DNA from: a bacterium
GTDB lineage: Bacteria > Omnitrophota > Gorgyraeia > Duberdicusellales > 4484-171
DNA length: 42,645 nt
Assembly (NCBI GenBank): GCA_021796115.1
Contig: JAJYOP010000014.1
Span: 1 to 42,645 of the forward strand
Direction of reading: 5' to 3'
Shown here: positions 27,356 through 33,474 of the stretch, in pieces
How positions within the stretch are numbered: the stretch's first letter is position 1
Layout of the letters: the number at the start of each line of letters is the position of its first letter
Notes under the pieces: generated by a model
The model's database searches: none
What the model was told of the DNA's origin: nothing
Seen by the model: only the letters and a program-made list of their open reading frames with translations
Program-made: the position numbers and the translations under genes

Positions 27356-27425
27356 ATAGCTTATGCGGTGAATGCTTGATATAAGATAGCAAAAATGTTA
27401 TATTTTAACGGTAGGGGGGGGCGAT

Positions 27426-27821
27426 ATCAAAAAGAAAGCTTTAACTTTGCTCGAAATCATTGTAGTTATTATTCTCGTAGGGATTCTTTGCGCTATTTCT
27501 TTGCCGAGTTTTAACAAAATGGCGGAAAAGAACAAAGGCGAAAATGCAAAGTTCAGCCTTATTGCCATATCCAACGCTGAAAAAAGGTATAAGCTCGACA
27601 AGGGGCAATATTATGACTGTGCCAGTCCCTGTAATATCACAAAACTTAACGATGACCTGGGGCTTCTTCTCGGTGACCGTTATTTTGATTATTCTATAAC
27701 CGGTAATACTACTTTTTTTGAGGCTACAGCTACCAGAAAAAACGAAGGCATGTGTGCTGGCGGTACCATAAAGGTTACAAGCGACGATAATACAATTGTA
27801 GCGGGTTGTAACGTATGGTAA
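27426..27821 (+). CDS. Type IV pilin-like protein (GspG-like) with a non-standard start
   Basis: The frame codes for KKKALTLLEIIVVIILVGILCAISLPSF, a prepilin leader, Glu5 and hydrophobic helix, then a 100-residue globular part with four cysteines. The ORF track starts at TTG 27447, which would remove the leader. No ATG, GTG or TTG lies in frame upstream before the stop at 27387. ATC at 27426, four bases after a G8 run resembling a ribosome site, would give MKKKALTLLE. Alternatively, seven G's instead of eight would join ATG 27395 to this frame. The start is therefore uncertain; the product class is not. Confidence 0.75.
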   Translation: MKKKALTLLEIIVVIILVGILCAISLPSFNKMAEKNKGENAKFSLIAISNAEKRYKLDKGQYYDCASPCNITKLNDDLGLLLGDRYFDYSITGNTTFFEATATRKNEGMCAGGTIKVTSDDNTIVAGCNVW

Positions 27822-29188
27822 AGAGAATACGAAAACAACTTTTACTTATCGCATTAAGTCTTAGCGCAGGTTTTATCATTTTTTCTATAAACAATTTTGT
27901 CGCGGCTGACAATACGACCAGGTCTTTACAATACCTTCCTCATGACGAAGTTGTGGATAGCGTAAACAAAAAATACGAACCTGCTTTAATAAAACAAGGT
28001 ATCAGTTGCGAAGCAGCTTTTGAAGACGCGACTCGCTGCTTTTACTGTGTCCAAACCCTCAAATCAGCTTGCCCGGATTGTTGTTTGAGTTTTAAGTCTC
28101 CAAAAAACGCCATTCGTTGTACGAAAGAGGATGATGCCAGATTTGATTGCCCGGCATTGGCCTATGCAACCGATTCGTGCCCCCTGGTGGCCGACTGTAA
28201 ATGCCCGGCTACCGTAACGCAATGTTCTGACAAGTTAAATGATTGCCGTGATTGCCCTGATTCAAAAAGCGGATCATGGGTTTGCAGTAATTTACCACAT
28301 TGCCAAGAGCTTGGTTGTCCGAGCGCAAAACCAAAAGCTTCCATCGGTAAGAATTGTGTATTAAAAGATAATCAATGGATTTGTGAAGAGAACAATCTTT
28401 CGCCGGAATTTACCGGCTGTAAATCAAATGTATCTATCGGCAACTGCCAAGTTTCACAATATTACGTTACTACGCTTATTTCTGACTGTCAGGGGTTGAC
28501 TTCACCTCCGCCTTCGCAATGTTACCAATATCTCCTTACTCCTGAATATCAAAATTGTATTAATACTTGCCAGGCATATACGAATAATTGGGAAAAATGC
28601 ACCAAAAGTGTTAATTGTTGTAACCAAAAAGTATGCGGAACCGGTTTTACCGATAATTGCGCTGTTAACCTCTGCCAGGAGCGAATAGATTGGCCGGAAT
28701 GCGATAATCTAACCCTGCCAACTTGTATTAATTTACAGCAAGAGGCATTAGCTTGCCTTTCAAATCCAAACCCCGGAGGCGGTTGCGGCAGTTGTTTTGA
28801 AGAAATTGACCCTAACTTATATTATAAATTTGTTGCAAGAAGCCGGGAAACTTCAGTAATATTTTGGCAGGTTCTTGCTGAAACTGAATTTAGCGGCACC
28901 GTAAGCGCTAAGGACATTCCTACCTACTTTTTCACTATGGTGAAAATAACCGATACGAATGGTAGAGAGGTCCATAGAAGCGTTATTCATCAAAAAAGTT
29001 TTCAAGGCTCATTTTCGATTTTTTCCGCAACCGCGGTTGACGCAGGGACGCTGCAACAAGGAGAAACTTATACGGTAAGGCTTTATTATTTTCTCCCGGA
29101 AAAACTTCTTATCCCGGGATTAGAGAACGTGAAATTATCTGCACAAATAAAAAGCGCCGGACTTATTGTTACCCGGACGAGAAATTAA
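27815..29188 (+). CDS. Cysteine-rich secreted or membrane-anchored protein
   Basis: A 457-residue protein I cannot assign to a family. Residues 8-30 (LLLIALSLSAGFIIFSINNFVAA) are a signal peptide or anchor. About residues 65-335 hold 36 cysteines by my count, including CFYC, CPDCC, CKC, CRDC and CGSC clusters. The last 120 residues have no cysteine and look beta-rich (FFTMVKITDTNGREV, YTVRLYYFLPEK). The start overlaps the pseudopilin gene by seven bases, so they are coupled. Disulfide-bonded adhesin, cargo or metal-binding protein are possibilities. Confidence 0.8.
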   Translation: MVKRIRKQLLLIALSLSAGFIIFSINNFVAADNTTRSLQYLPHDEVVDSVNKKYEPALIKQGISCEAAFEDATRCFYCVQTLKSACPDCCLSFKSPKNAIRCTKEDDARFDCPALAYATDSCPLVADCKCPATVTQCSDKLNDCRDCPDSKSGSWVCSNLPHCQELGCPSAKPKASIGKNCVLKDNQWICEENNLSPEFTGCKSNVSIGNCQVSQYYVTTLISDCQGLTSPPPSQCYQYLLTPEYQNCINTCQAYTNNWEKCTKSVNCCNQKVCGTGFTDNCAVNLCQERIDWPECDNLTLPTCINLQQEALACLSNPNPGGGCGSCFEEIDPNLYYKFVARSRETSVIFWQVLAETEFSGTVSAKDIPTYFFTMVKITDTNGREVHRSVIHQKSFQGSFSIFSATAVDAGTLQQGETYTVRLYYFLPEKLLIPGLENVKLSAQIKSAGLIVTRTRN

Positions 29189-29234
29189 TTAACAAGAGTA
29201 AAAATAATAGGGGGAGTGCAAGAGGGGGGTGTCT

Positions 29235-30023
29235 ATGAGAGCGTTGCTAATAGTTTCTTTGATTCTGTTTTCTGTTGCTGGCATTACGTTTGCACAGGAA
29301 AAAGCGCAAATGGCTCCTGATAAAGGGCCGCAAATATTACAGGCGGTAGGCGAAAAATCCGCCGAATTAGGGCCTTCGCGTTATCCTGAATTTTCAGGTT
29401 ATCAGAGCGATAATCCTACCTGCGGAGAGTATTTAAAGAAAAAATTTAATGAAAGTGCAATAATCGGCGATGTGTCGCAAGAAGGAATGAGTCTTGCTCC
29501 TTTGTGGGTTAAAAGTAAATATCGCCGCGACGCAAATGCTCCTGCAGCCGGGAAAAAAGCAGAATATGTATTAGTTCCCGGTTTGACCTATACTTACGAT
29601 GTTCCTGCAGCATATCGTAAAACCGCCAATCTTCTTATTACCTGGACAGTGCGCGTAGAAGGTTATAAAACCGACCCATACATGATCTGGCCGAATCTTT
29701 GCAATGTTTGGCATGGAACATCGCTGCAGCATTTTTCTGGCGGAGAAGCAAAAACCGCTTTGTTCGTAAACGGCGAGCAAAAAGGCGAAGAAATAATAAT
29801 GACTATTCCTGATGGTGGCGTAACGAGCTCTTATCAGCCAAGCGATCCGACGCACACCGGAAGTTTCCTGCTCACTGCAGAAAGCTTTGCCAACGGAGAA
29901 CTACCTGAAACAGTTAAGATTGAGATAAAATGGTATAACGATACCTGCATGAAACTAGTAAGCCCAGCTGGAATGCGCAATTTGATAATCACTGTTGTGC
30001 CCATAGAAAGAACAACGGAATAA
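29235..30023 (+). CDS. Secreted beta-rich protein of unknown function
   Basis: A 262-residue protein with a clear Sec signal peptide, MRALLIVSLILFSVAGITFA, cleaved probably before QEK. The mature part has segments rich in beta-forming residues (LLITWTVRVEGYKT, AKTALFVNGEQKGEEIIMTI, ETVKIEIKWYND) and three cysteines. No family was recognised. Start ATG 29235 follows GAGGGGGG at 29222-29229, a G-run ribosome site like that of the pseudopilin upstream. It is the last gene before the terminator at 30033. Confidence 0.75.
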   Translation: MRALLIVSLILFSVAGITFAQEKAQMAPDKGPQILQAVGEKSAELGPSRYPEFSGYQSDNPTCGEYLKKKFNESAIIGDVSQEGMSLAPLWVKSKYRRDANAPAAGKKAEYVLVPGLTYTYDVPAAYRKTANLLITWTVRVEGYKTDPYMIWPNLCNVWHGTSLQHFSGGEAKTALFVNGEQKGEEIIMTIPDGGVTSSYQPSDPTHTGSFLLTAESFANGELPETVKIEIKWYNDTCMKLVSPAGMRNLIITVVPIERTTE

Positions 30024-30032
30024 AATTGTGGC

Positions 30033-30080
30033 ATACCCTTGCCAGTTTCTATCCTGGCAAGGGTATAGTTTTAAGATTTT
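30033..30080 (+). terminator. Intrinsic terminator-like hairpin
   Basis: atacccttgccag (30033-30045) and ctggcaagggtat (30054-30066) form a perfect 13-bp stem with an 8-base loop, followed by agttttaagatttt. The T-run is interrupted, so termination may be partial. It divides the pseudopilin/Cys-rich set from the following pseudopilin genes. Confidence 0.75.
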
Positions 30081-30112
30081 GTAACTCTTCTCTGAATAAA
30101 CGATAAAATATT

Positions 30113-30952
30113 ATGCCCAAAAGAAAAACTTTTACTTTACTTGAAATTGTAGTTTCCCTTATAATTATAGCCATAGGCCTGACTGCGGTAGGCGTGACAT
30201 TTATTGGTGGAAAATTTATTTTGAAAGAAGCAGAAAATAAATCAAGAGCCATAAGCATTGCGACCGTTAAGATGGAAGAATATTTGTCTAAAACATTTTC
30301 CGGTTTAGGCGGGATAGAAACACCTACTTTAACCTATATTGGCACTGATTCAGGTAAAGAGGGCGATATACCTGTTGACTGGAAGGTAGATATTTCTACT
30401 CAGTGGGAGGTCAATAAGAAACTTTCAATATCTGTGCCATATAAAGTTATTGAGGTTAATACGTTCTATAACGAAGAGTCTCCTAATAATCAAAAAATAA
30501 GAAAAAATGTAAAATTAATCAATATTATCCCGTACCCTTATATGCATATTCAATCATTGCATATTGAATCGGGGTCCGGCGGGCAAGCCGTTCCTCCCAC
30601 GTATTTCGATGATATCAGCGGTTTGAAAATTGAGTTTAATTACCCGGTCTTTAAAGACATTATGGTTGTTTATGATGTGGCTATTTATATTGAAAATAGT
30701 ACGAATATAACCCCTACCGATACGATCTATACCGGATGCTATTTAGATAACGAAAAAAATAATAGGGGAACGCAGACGAGGACACCCATTTCCATGCAGC
30801 CGTTCATAAGCAATGCTATCTCTATAGATAATGTTTCTCCCGGCCCCCACAGTCTTAGCATAAAATGGATGAAAGACACGCAGGTACGTAATGCCGGGAC
30901 AATAAAGCTCAAAGAAGCAAATTTAATAATTATTAGTACCGAAAAACAATAA
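30113..30952 (+). CDS. Pseudopilin, GspI/PilV-like
   Basis: A 279-residue prepilin: leader MPKRKT, then FTLLEIVVSLIIIAIGLTAVGVTFIGG with Glu at position 5. The globular part is long for GspI. The NKSRAISIATVKMEEYL stretch following the helix is typical of minor pseudopilins of the I/V type. No ribosome site; the terminator lies 50 bases upstream, and TTGTAA with a weak GATAAA could be a promoter. It is followed by a J-like gene seven bases on. Confidence 0.75.
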   Translation: MPKRKTFTLLEIVVSLIIIAIGLTAVGVTFIGGKFILKEAENKSRAISIATVKMEEYLSKTFSGLGGIETPTLTYIGTDSGKEGDIPVDWKVDISTQWEVNKKLSISVPYKVIEVNTFYNEESPNNQKIRKNVKLINIIPYPYMHIQSLHIESGSGGQAVPPTYFDDISGLKIEFNYPVFKDIMVVYDVAIYIENSTNITPTDTIYTGCYLDNEKNNRGTQTRTPISMQPFISNAISIDNVSPGPHSLSIKWMKDTQVRNAGTIKLKEANLIIISTEKQ

Positions 30953-30959
30953 ATTAGTT

Positions 30960-31538
30960 ATGATAAAAAAATCTAATATTTTAAGGCGAGCTGGCTTTAC
31001 TTTAATGGAGATTATACTCGCCATCGTCTTGATAAGTTCGGTAGTTATGATGGTAAACTCTATCTATATTTTTTTTGCCAGACAAATACCCTCTAACAAG
31101 GAACGTTATGATATGCTTAGCCAGATAGACTATACTTTGGACGACATGAGGCTCAGGCTTGTAAGCGCCAGCCAGGTTGACAAAGGCTCTCTTTTTTATC
31201 TTTCTCCTTCTTCTTTCTCGGATATAAAGCAGAATTTTAAATTTTTCGGAGAAAAAGATATTTATAAAATAACACCCAATGATACTACTGATAATGTCTG
31301 GTATGAATATCGTATCGAACGAAATAACCTTATTTTAGAAACCACTAGCGCAGATGGCTCAACAAAGGAAATTTTAGTCAATGGTAAATATAAGCCGCAG
31401 GTGACATTTGAATGGTATGCTGGTTATGAGCCAAATTTTTTTACTGTAACCATAACAGCACAAAGTACCACCAATCCACCTGTTAAATTATCAAAGACAG
31501 AAGGAATACATTTTTGGTTTGTTGATGTAAAGCAATGA
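30960..31538 (+). CDS. Pseudopilin, GspJ/PilW-like
   Basis: A 192-residue prepilin with leader MIKKSNILRRAG, then FTLMEIILAIVLISSVVMMVNSIYIFF. The order after an I-like gene, and a globular domain with an IDYTLDDMRLRLVSASQ helix, suggests GspJ/PilW. Its stop overlaps the next start by four bases (ATGA). Confidence 0.75.
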   Translation: MIKKSNILRRAGFTLMEIILAIVLISSVVMMVNSIYIFFARQIPSNKERYDMLSQIDYTLDDMRLRLVSASQVDKGSLFYLSPSSFSDIKQNFKFFGEKDIYKITPNDTTDNVWYEYRIERNNLILETTSADGSTKEILVNGKYKPQVTFEWYAGYEPNFFTVTITAQSTTNPPVKLSKTEGIHFWFVDVKQ

Positions 31539-31879
31539 TTACCATAGCAGTTTCAATATTAGTGATGCTTTCGCTTCTGCTTTCGGCATTTTTGGGCTTT
31601 GGCCCGCAATTGCACAAACTTGTCGAGAACGATCTCATGCGCCGCTCCTATAATAATACCCTTATGTATGGTCTGGAATTAGGCCAAATAGGTATAAGAG
31701 CGAAAACTTTAACCACTGACCCAAAAACTAAAAAGAATATCGATATACCTTTCAGGACGGTATATTCCAATGCGGATGCGAAAGGAAAAATCCAAGATAG
31801 ATTCGTCGGCGATGTCTCTTTAAAAAATAATGCCGGGAATCTTGAAATAGAAGTTAATCTAGAACATCAAACTGACTAA
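31535..31879 (+). CDS. Small membrane protein after GspJ-like gene (GspK/PilX-like?)
   Basis: A 114-residue protein with one N-terminal membrane segment, ITIAVSILVMLSLLLSAFLGFG, and a soluble rest. It lacks a GFTLxE cleavage motif. The position after I- and J-like genes and the helix followed by NDLMRRSYNNTLMYGLELGQIG resemble the start of GspK/PilX, which often have divergent leaders, but it is much shorter than GspK. Coupled to the J-like gene by four bases. Confidence 0.6.
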   Translation: MITIAVSILVMLSLLLSAFLGFGPQLHKLVENDLMRRSYNNTLMYGLELGQIGIRAKTLTTDPKTKKNIDIPFRTVYSNADAKGKIQDRFVGDVSLKNNAGNLEIEVNLEHQTD

Positions 31880-33282: not shown

Positions 33283-33474
33283 ATGATTAAAACGAGAAAA
33301 AAAAGAATTCCAAGGCTAATGACAATCAACGAACTCTCGGAATATCTGGGGTTGCAGAAGCAGACTATCTATAATTGGCTTCACCAGAAAAAGATTTCGG
33401 GCTTAAAAATCGGCAAGGTATGGCGTTTCGACAGGCAATATATAGACGAATGGCTTAAAAACTCAATGAAATAA
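33283..33474 (+). CDS. Small excisionase/MerR-like helix-turn-helix protein
   Basis: A 63-residue DNA-binding protein. LMTINELSEYLGLQKQTIYNWLHQKKISGLKIGKVWRFDRQYIDEWL matches the excisionase-type winged HTH (TVxELAxYLxVSxxTVYRWxxxGxLPAxKxGRxWRF). It lies three bases before the pilM-like gene, so it is most likely a regulator of that operon rather than a phage excisionase; no integrase is nearby. Confidence 0.85.
   Translation: MIKTRKKRIPRLMTINELSEYLGLQKQTIYNWLHQKKISGLKIGKVWRFDRQYIDEWLKNSMK

Follow-up and report, generated by a model that had tools for sequence, protein, structure and literature searches.

The window, by which we mean the whole 42,645-nucleotide stretch of DNA analysed here, comes from an Omnitrophota MAG of 1.7 Mb that is 88% complete. 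It contains a cassette of six genes at positions 27426–31879, which encode, in order, a GspG-like pilin, a Cys-rich exported protein, an exported beta-rich protein, a PilV-like pilin, a third pilin and a leaderless pilin-like membrane protein (Table 1). A sequence-only reading of this DNA had reported the first three genes, which form the front half of the cassette, and its description of them is accurate. The pseudopilin frame overlaps that of the 457-residue exported protein by 7 nucleotides, all 36 cysteines of the latter lie within residues 65–327 (263 residues, where about 270 had been stated) with none in the last 130, and the second exported protein is followed by a hairpin with a perfect 13-bp stem (30033–30045 pairing with 30054–30066).

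Table 1 Features of the cassette, with positions in the window
Feature	Position	Strand	Remark
Promoter-like site upstream of cassette	27376–27404	+	TTGATA-17-TATATT, extended -10; consensus scan 10/12
Gene 1, GspG-like (pseudo)pilin	27426–27821	+	Non-canonical start ATC 27426; first TTG 27447
Gene 2, exported Cys-rich protein, 457 aa, 36 Cys	27815–29188	+	Homologues in 19 Omnitrophota genomes
Gene 2 Cys-rich head, residues 65–327	28007–28795	+	Variable length and Cys number among homologues
Gene 2 Cys-free C-terminal beta domain, residues 331–457	28805–29185	+	Best conserved part
Gene 3, exported beta-rich protein, 264 aa, 3 Cys	29229–30023	+	Signal peptide end ...GITFA|Q
Hairpin between genes 3 and 4	30033–30066	+	13-bp stem, 8-nt loop
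Gene 4, PilV-like minor pilin with large C-terminal domain	30113–30952	+	N_methyl (PF07963) above Pfam cut-off
Gene 4 C-terminal domain	30617–30940	+	Tentatively related to gene 2 C-terminal domain (hhalign)
Gene 5, third minor pilin, GspJ/PilW-like by position and size	30960–31538	+	IV_pilin_GFxxxE (TIGR02532) above cut-off
Gene 6, 114 aa, pilin-like N-terminal hydrophobic helix, no prepilin leader	31535–31879	+	Last gene of the cassette

Promoter-like sites are not more numerous in this region than in shuffled sequence, and the site upstream of the cassette is therefore weak evidence for a promoter. The gene 1 frame begins IKKKALTLLEIIVVIILVGIL and offers no ATG, GTG or TTG ahead of the prepilin motif; an ATC opens it soon after a poly-G run. 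The start would be either this ATC or one masked by an indel hidden in the poly-G run just upstream. Genes 1, 4 and 5 each encode a prepilin-type N-terminal motif and a hydrophobic helix (PF07963 for gene 4, TIGR02532 for genes 1 and 5). For gene 1, TIGR02532 scored just above its cut-off (16.8 versus 16.3 bits) and the NCBIfam GspG (E 6e-11) and N_methyl models scored below theirs, and a homologue of this gene is the first cassette gene in the loci that are not cut by a contig end. For gene 4, cassette loci yielded 19 homologues, of which one is truncated by a contig end. The gene 6 product has no prepilin leader or cleavage motif, its hydrophobic helix opening the protein directly, as also in the listed homologues. 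It had no match in the libraries searched, and a single-sequence search found 12 homologues, in the last cassette position. Gene 6 may correspond to the GspK/PilX-like position.

The gene 2 product carries a Sec-type signal peptide at its N-terminus, and cysteine makes up 7.9% of its residues compared with about 1.5% in the window ORFs longer than 110 aa. Chance does not explain this richness, since 17 homologues share 14 invariant Cys columns. The head varies among homologues from 245 to 442 aa and from 26 to 50 Cys and the C-terminal domain from 119 to 150 aa, with a mean pairwise identity of 35% in the C-terminal domain versus 21% at the non-Cys positions of the head. After the signal peptide the number of cysteines is even in 15 of 18 homologues (36 in the window protein; binomial p 0.004, or 0.018 without close copies), so pairing is expected and the head is probably disulfide-rich. 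The even counts make plausible the earlier suggestion that the exported proteins would need strong oxidative folding in the periplasm, but a matching oxidase was not found. VKOR was absent from all 39 genomes searched, the one DsbA-like protein found in the window's own genome (PF13462) has CPFS instead of CxxC, and the association of DsbA-like genes with the cassette was not significant (7/19 versus 2/20, p 0.065). The gene for this CPFS-bearing DsbA/thioredoxin-fold protein (L124:1261-2016) adjoins a sensor kinase-like gene.

Profile comparison with hhalign aligned the C-terminal domain of gene 2 with that of the PilV-like pilin over 104–105 collinear columns (P 1.7e-4 to 2.4e-4, probability 44–49%), whereas no control (unrelated, reversed and other pilin profiles) did better than P 0.03. 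The alignment of the beta protein with the pilin domain was weaker (P about 0.002), and its direct comparison with the gene 2 C-terminal domain showed no similarity. The gene 2 and PilV-like C-terminal domains are tentatively related, the match being below the usual significance and best treated as a lead.

The sequence-only reading had recognised neither exported protein as a member of a family, and the same holds for the libraries that we searched. The single proteins were compared with Pfam, NCBIfam, PHROGs and PDB sequences, all family members also with Pfam and both family profiles also with PDB, and no match beyond chance was obtained. No relatives were found in viral contigs (both proteins) or in plasmids (Cys-rich protein). 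Among named relatives of the beta protein, the closest lies on a MAG contig of Candidatus Omnitrophota bacterium STF1_137, and a scan of GTDB contigs with this protein gave a single match, to another Omnitrophota contig. Both families are provisionally limited to Omnitrophota, the search outside the phylum having been limited. The beta-propeller domain of PilY1 (PF05567) had no Pfam match in gene 2, gene 3 or any of their homologues; nor was PilY1 detected elsewhere in the carrier and related genomes (0/39), the control set likewise being without matches. AlphaFold models built on two-row alignments of the two exported proteins reached pLDDT values of 37 and 45 and were too poor for use; a fold search with the beta model returned a mixture of beta-rich proteins with query TM-scores no higher than about 0.3, which we do not count as evidence. 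There were also weak matches to the beta protein in genomes of other families, namely G035, G036, G037, G044, G049 and G056 (E 0.001–0.01), of which those in G036, G044, G049 and G056 were inspected and rejected as having no cassette nearby. A weak match to the Cys-rich protein in G040 (E 0.01, internal stops) was rejected on the same ground.

Relatives of the Cys-rich protein were found in 7 more genomes of the window's family, and a profile search added 11 genomes from three other families. Profiles of the Cys-rich protein, the beta protein and the C-terminal part of the third pilin selected the identical 16 of 384 Omnitrophota genomes with no discordant genome; these carriers are related to one another and do not represent 16 independent events. 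Families f1, f4, f30 and f38 together provide 12 complete loci that keep the six-gene order, several other loci being cut by contig ends. Thus the check for co-occurrence with pseudopilins in relatives, which had been suggested from the sequence, was strongly positive. The beta gene is present in two tandem copies at three loci (L037, L071 and L072). One carrier, G197, has a cassette (L073) without a beta gene in place and two beta-family genes elsewhere, away from any pilin (L149:6837-7694 and L150:7203-7985). In another, G351, most of the cassette is tandemly duplicated (L068:3491-12814), and the two Cys-rich proteins have diverged, with 50 and 34 Cys.

The cassette behaves as one block, which a genome either has or lacks. 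It lies between lipM and lipA in the window and in the nearest carriers. Among non-carriers of the same family, 11 genomes have lipM and lipA overlapping or separated by no more than about 50 bp. They are adjacent also in G025, where the cassette is found elsewhere, away from the pilus core. In other carriers the neighbours of the cassette are ppx-like, rlmN-like or recG-like genes (names read from sequence). When five cassette genes were concatenated for a tree, monophyly of family f4 was rejected (AU p 0.0003), so inheritance has not been simply vertical within families, and the split of the f4 members fits either transfer or an old duplication with loss. The G+C content of the cassette (39.6%) is close to that of the core (39.0%), and composition gives no mark of foreign origin. 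Beside the G025 cassette are four short ORFs of 63–81 aa (L038:13381-16795) that share the motif LNPEQA(V/I)LSCCD and resemble the precursor peptides of a ribosomally synthesised natural product.

The conserved gene set also bears on the extent of the expression unit. Genes 1–3 had been read as one compact unit closed by the hairpin; they do belong together, but the genes at 30113, 30960 and 31535 are part of the same conserved set, and for this reason we reject the idea of a three-gene unit terminated by the hairpin. Its T tail is weak, and a terminator scan scored other pairings at this position. A strong hairpin before gene 4 is common to the three members of the genus (the window, L032 and L033). 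At most other folded loci the genes overlap or are separated by 13–51 bp, with no similar hairpin, and the closely related loci L066 and L067 have longer structured spacers. Perhaps the element is a genus-specific attenuator or processing site.

A type IV pilus core (PilM/N/O-like proteins, a secretin, a PilB-like ATPase and a GspF-like platform) is encoded from pilM onward after lipA, in carriers and non-carriers alike. The PilT model (TIGR01420) scored above cut-off in 33 of 33 genomes tested, with 471 bits in the window's own genome. No GspG-K, GspD or GspE model reached its curated cut-off; the secretin and the ATPase score higher to PilQ and PilB, and the platform protein is matched best by the GspF model. 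The exported proteins had been proposed as partners of the pseudopilus machine at 33–42 kb. A partnership with pilins is strongly supported, but the first partners are the cassette's own four pilin-like genes, and since the core is found in relatives without the cassette and the G025 cassette lies away from the core, the partnership is not specifically with the 33–42 kb machine. Just before pilM, at 33283–33474, carriers and non-carriers keep a gene for a 63-aa helix-turn-helix protein (excisionase/MerR-like by eye) that may regulate the pilus core. At the contig end (40618–42460), downstream of the core, lie four further pilin genes, giving at least two pilin sets in the genome. In the single-contig non-carrier G006 (L152:1-18001) the genes from PilM to the PilB-like ATPase are present and no GspF-like or pilin genes follow directly, which means that the core operon is split there.

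We consider it the best reading, at a probability of roughly 60%, that the six genes are an accessory cassette of minor-pilin type whose products provide the tip complex for a type IV pilus or pseudopilus. In this mechanism, the GspG-like, PilV-like and third pilins and the leaderless pilin-like protein would form a priming complex in the inner membrane, onto which the resident type IV pilus core would add the major pilin. Both Sec-exported proteins would join the complex in the periplasm and then ride out on the end of the filament. The Cys-rich protein would dock through its conserved C-terminal beta domain, which is perhaps related to that of the PilV-like pilin, and its fast-changing, probably disulfide-braced head would bind a surface, a partner cell or a substrate. 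The beta protein could be a second, exchangeable tip or binding subunit, as suggested by its duplication in some genomes and by the orphan copies. It need not be an obligate tip subunit, given that G197 has its beta-family genes away from pilins.

The nearest model is the minor pilin/PilY1 cluster of type IVa pili (fimU-pilV-pilW-pilX-pilY1), which likewise combines about four minor-pilin genes with a large exported, often Cys-rich protein that is conserved at its C-terminus and variable at its N-terminus. In Myxococcus xanthus, PilY1 and four minor pilins make up the priming and tip complex, and the three alternative clusters may equip the pilus with different tips (PMC7541494). Among PilY1 proteins the C-terminal domain is conserved and the N-terminal one variable, with a median of 17–41 Cys depending on the clade (PMC13190605), and alternative clusters serve one core machine (PMC7541494, PMC13190605). 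As in these clusters, both exported proteins here are encoded with a minor pilin set. The differences are that gene 2 is only 457 aa long, with a C-terminal domain of about 130 aa in place of the beta propeller, that neither gene 2 nor gene 3 matches PF05567, that two exported proteins follow the first pilin, and that the fourth pilin-like protein is leaderless. The Myxococcus Kil (Tad) pilus also uses alternative minor-pilin sets to give one filament different tips (PMC12075869), but it does so with Tad-type pilins carrying fused domains, whereas the cassette has separate Sec-exported proteins and T4aP/T2SS-type pilins. The cassette pilins resemble the G/H, I, J and K set of the T2SS pseudopilus (GspG-K), and the platform protein fits GspF best; against a T2SS stand the lack of any GspG, I, J or K match at cut-off, the nearness of the secretin and ATPase to PilQ and PilB, and the presence of PilT. 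The Verru_Chthon cassettes of Verrucomicrobia are similar in being repeated small sets of pilin-like genes with a large exported protein, but the sole match to them is a weak one of the gene 1 pilin N-terminus (TIGR02596, E 0.003).

For the two exported proteins we infer a role as tip subunits, adhesins or cargo, and the last of these is the main rival to a tip complex. The minor pilins would then be a loading platform from which both proteins are released outside the cell, like TcpF or T2SS substrates. TcpF is similarly encoded inside a pilin operon, that of the toxin-coregulated pilus, and is a soluble exported protein handled by the minor pilin TcpB (PMC9565799); the cassette differs in having several minor pilins and two exported proteins, and no library match links the families. 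The export signals come without a membrane or lipid anchor, in agreement with release. Cargo is slightly favoured for the beta protein, because of its tandem copies and the orphan copies far from pilins. On the other hand, the platform and both proteins occur strictly together and no domain match suggests an enzyme. Cargo genes usually vary while the platform stays, and overall we regard this explanation as unlikely, if a serious one.

A poorer prospect is that the two proteins are periplasmic assembly factors, pilin-specific chaperones or accessory proteins with a TfpY-like role that stay inside the cell. They are exported and always lie beside the same pilins, and accessory proteins encoded with pilins have a precedent (PMC11841053), but a fast-diverging head with 26–50 Cys better suits surface exposure than a chaperone. 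It is very improbable that the cysteines instead hold metal or Fe-S centres for electron transfer or metal capture by the pilus. The CxxC...CxxCC motifs at gene 2 residues 75–90, the failure to detect VKOR or a CxxC-bearing DsbA in the window's genome and the conductive pilins predicted in Omnitrophota (PMC10066038) agree with such centres; the even Cys counts indicate pairing, the window protein has no CxxCH haem motif, and the number and spacing of Cys vary freely among homologues. That the first three genes are unrelated and side by side by chance can be set aside, as their identical distribution in 16 of 384 genomes and the order kept in different chromosomal contexts argue against it and no point in its favour was found.

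A tip complex built from this cassette would have broader implications. Tentatively, and with more doubt than confidence, we suggest that it represents a PilY1-independent class of filament tip, so far found only in Omnitrophota and carried as a portable cassette, in which two families absent from the databases searched replace PilY1. A disulfide-braced, rapidly changing head would sit on a beta domain sharing ancestry with the C-terminal domain of the minor pilin itself, and the structure would serve attachment between cells in bacteria that are suspected to live on other cells. Type 4a pili are common across Omnitrophota classes, several lineages of which are suspected predators or parasites (PMC10066038). 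The analysis defines two protein families that are absent from the libraries searched. If the cassette is indeed a tip module, then the role of PilY1 can be filled by unrelated proteins, candidate contact proteins are now named for a poorly cultured phylum, and the all-or-none gene set could be used for correlation with partner organisms in metagenomes.
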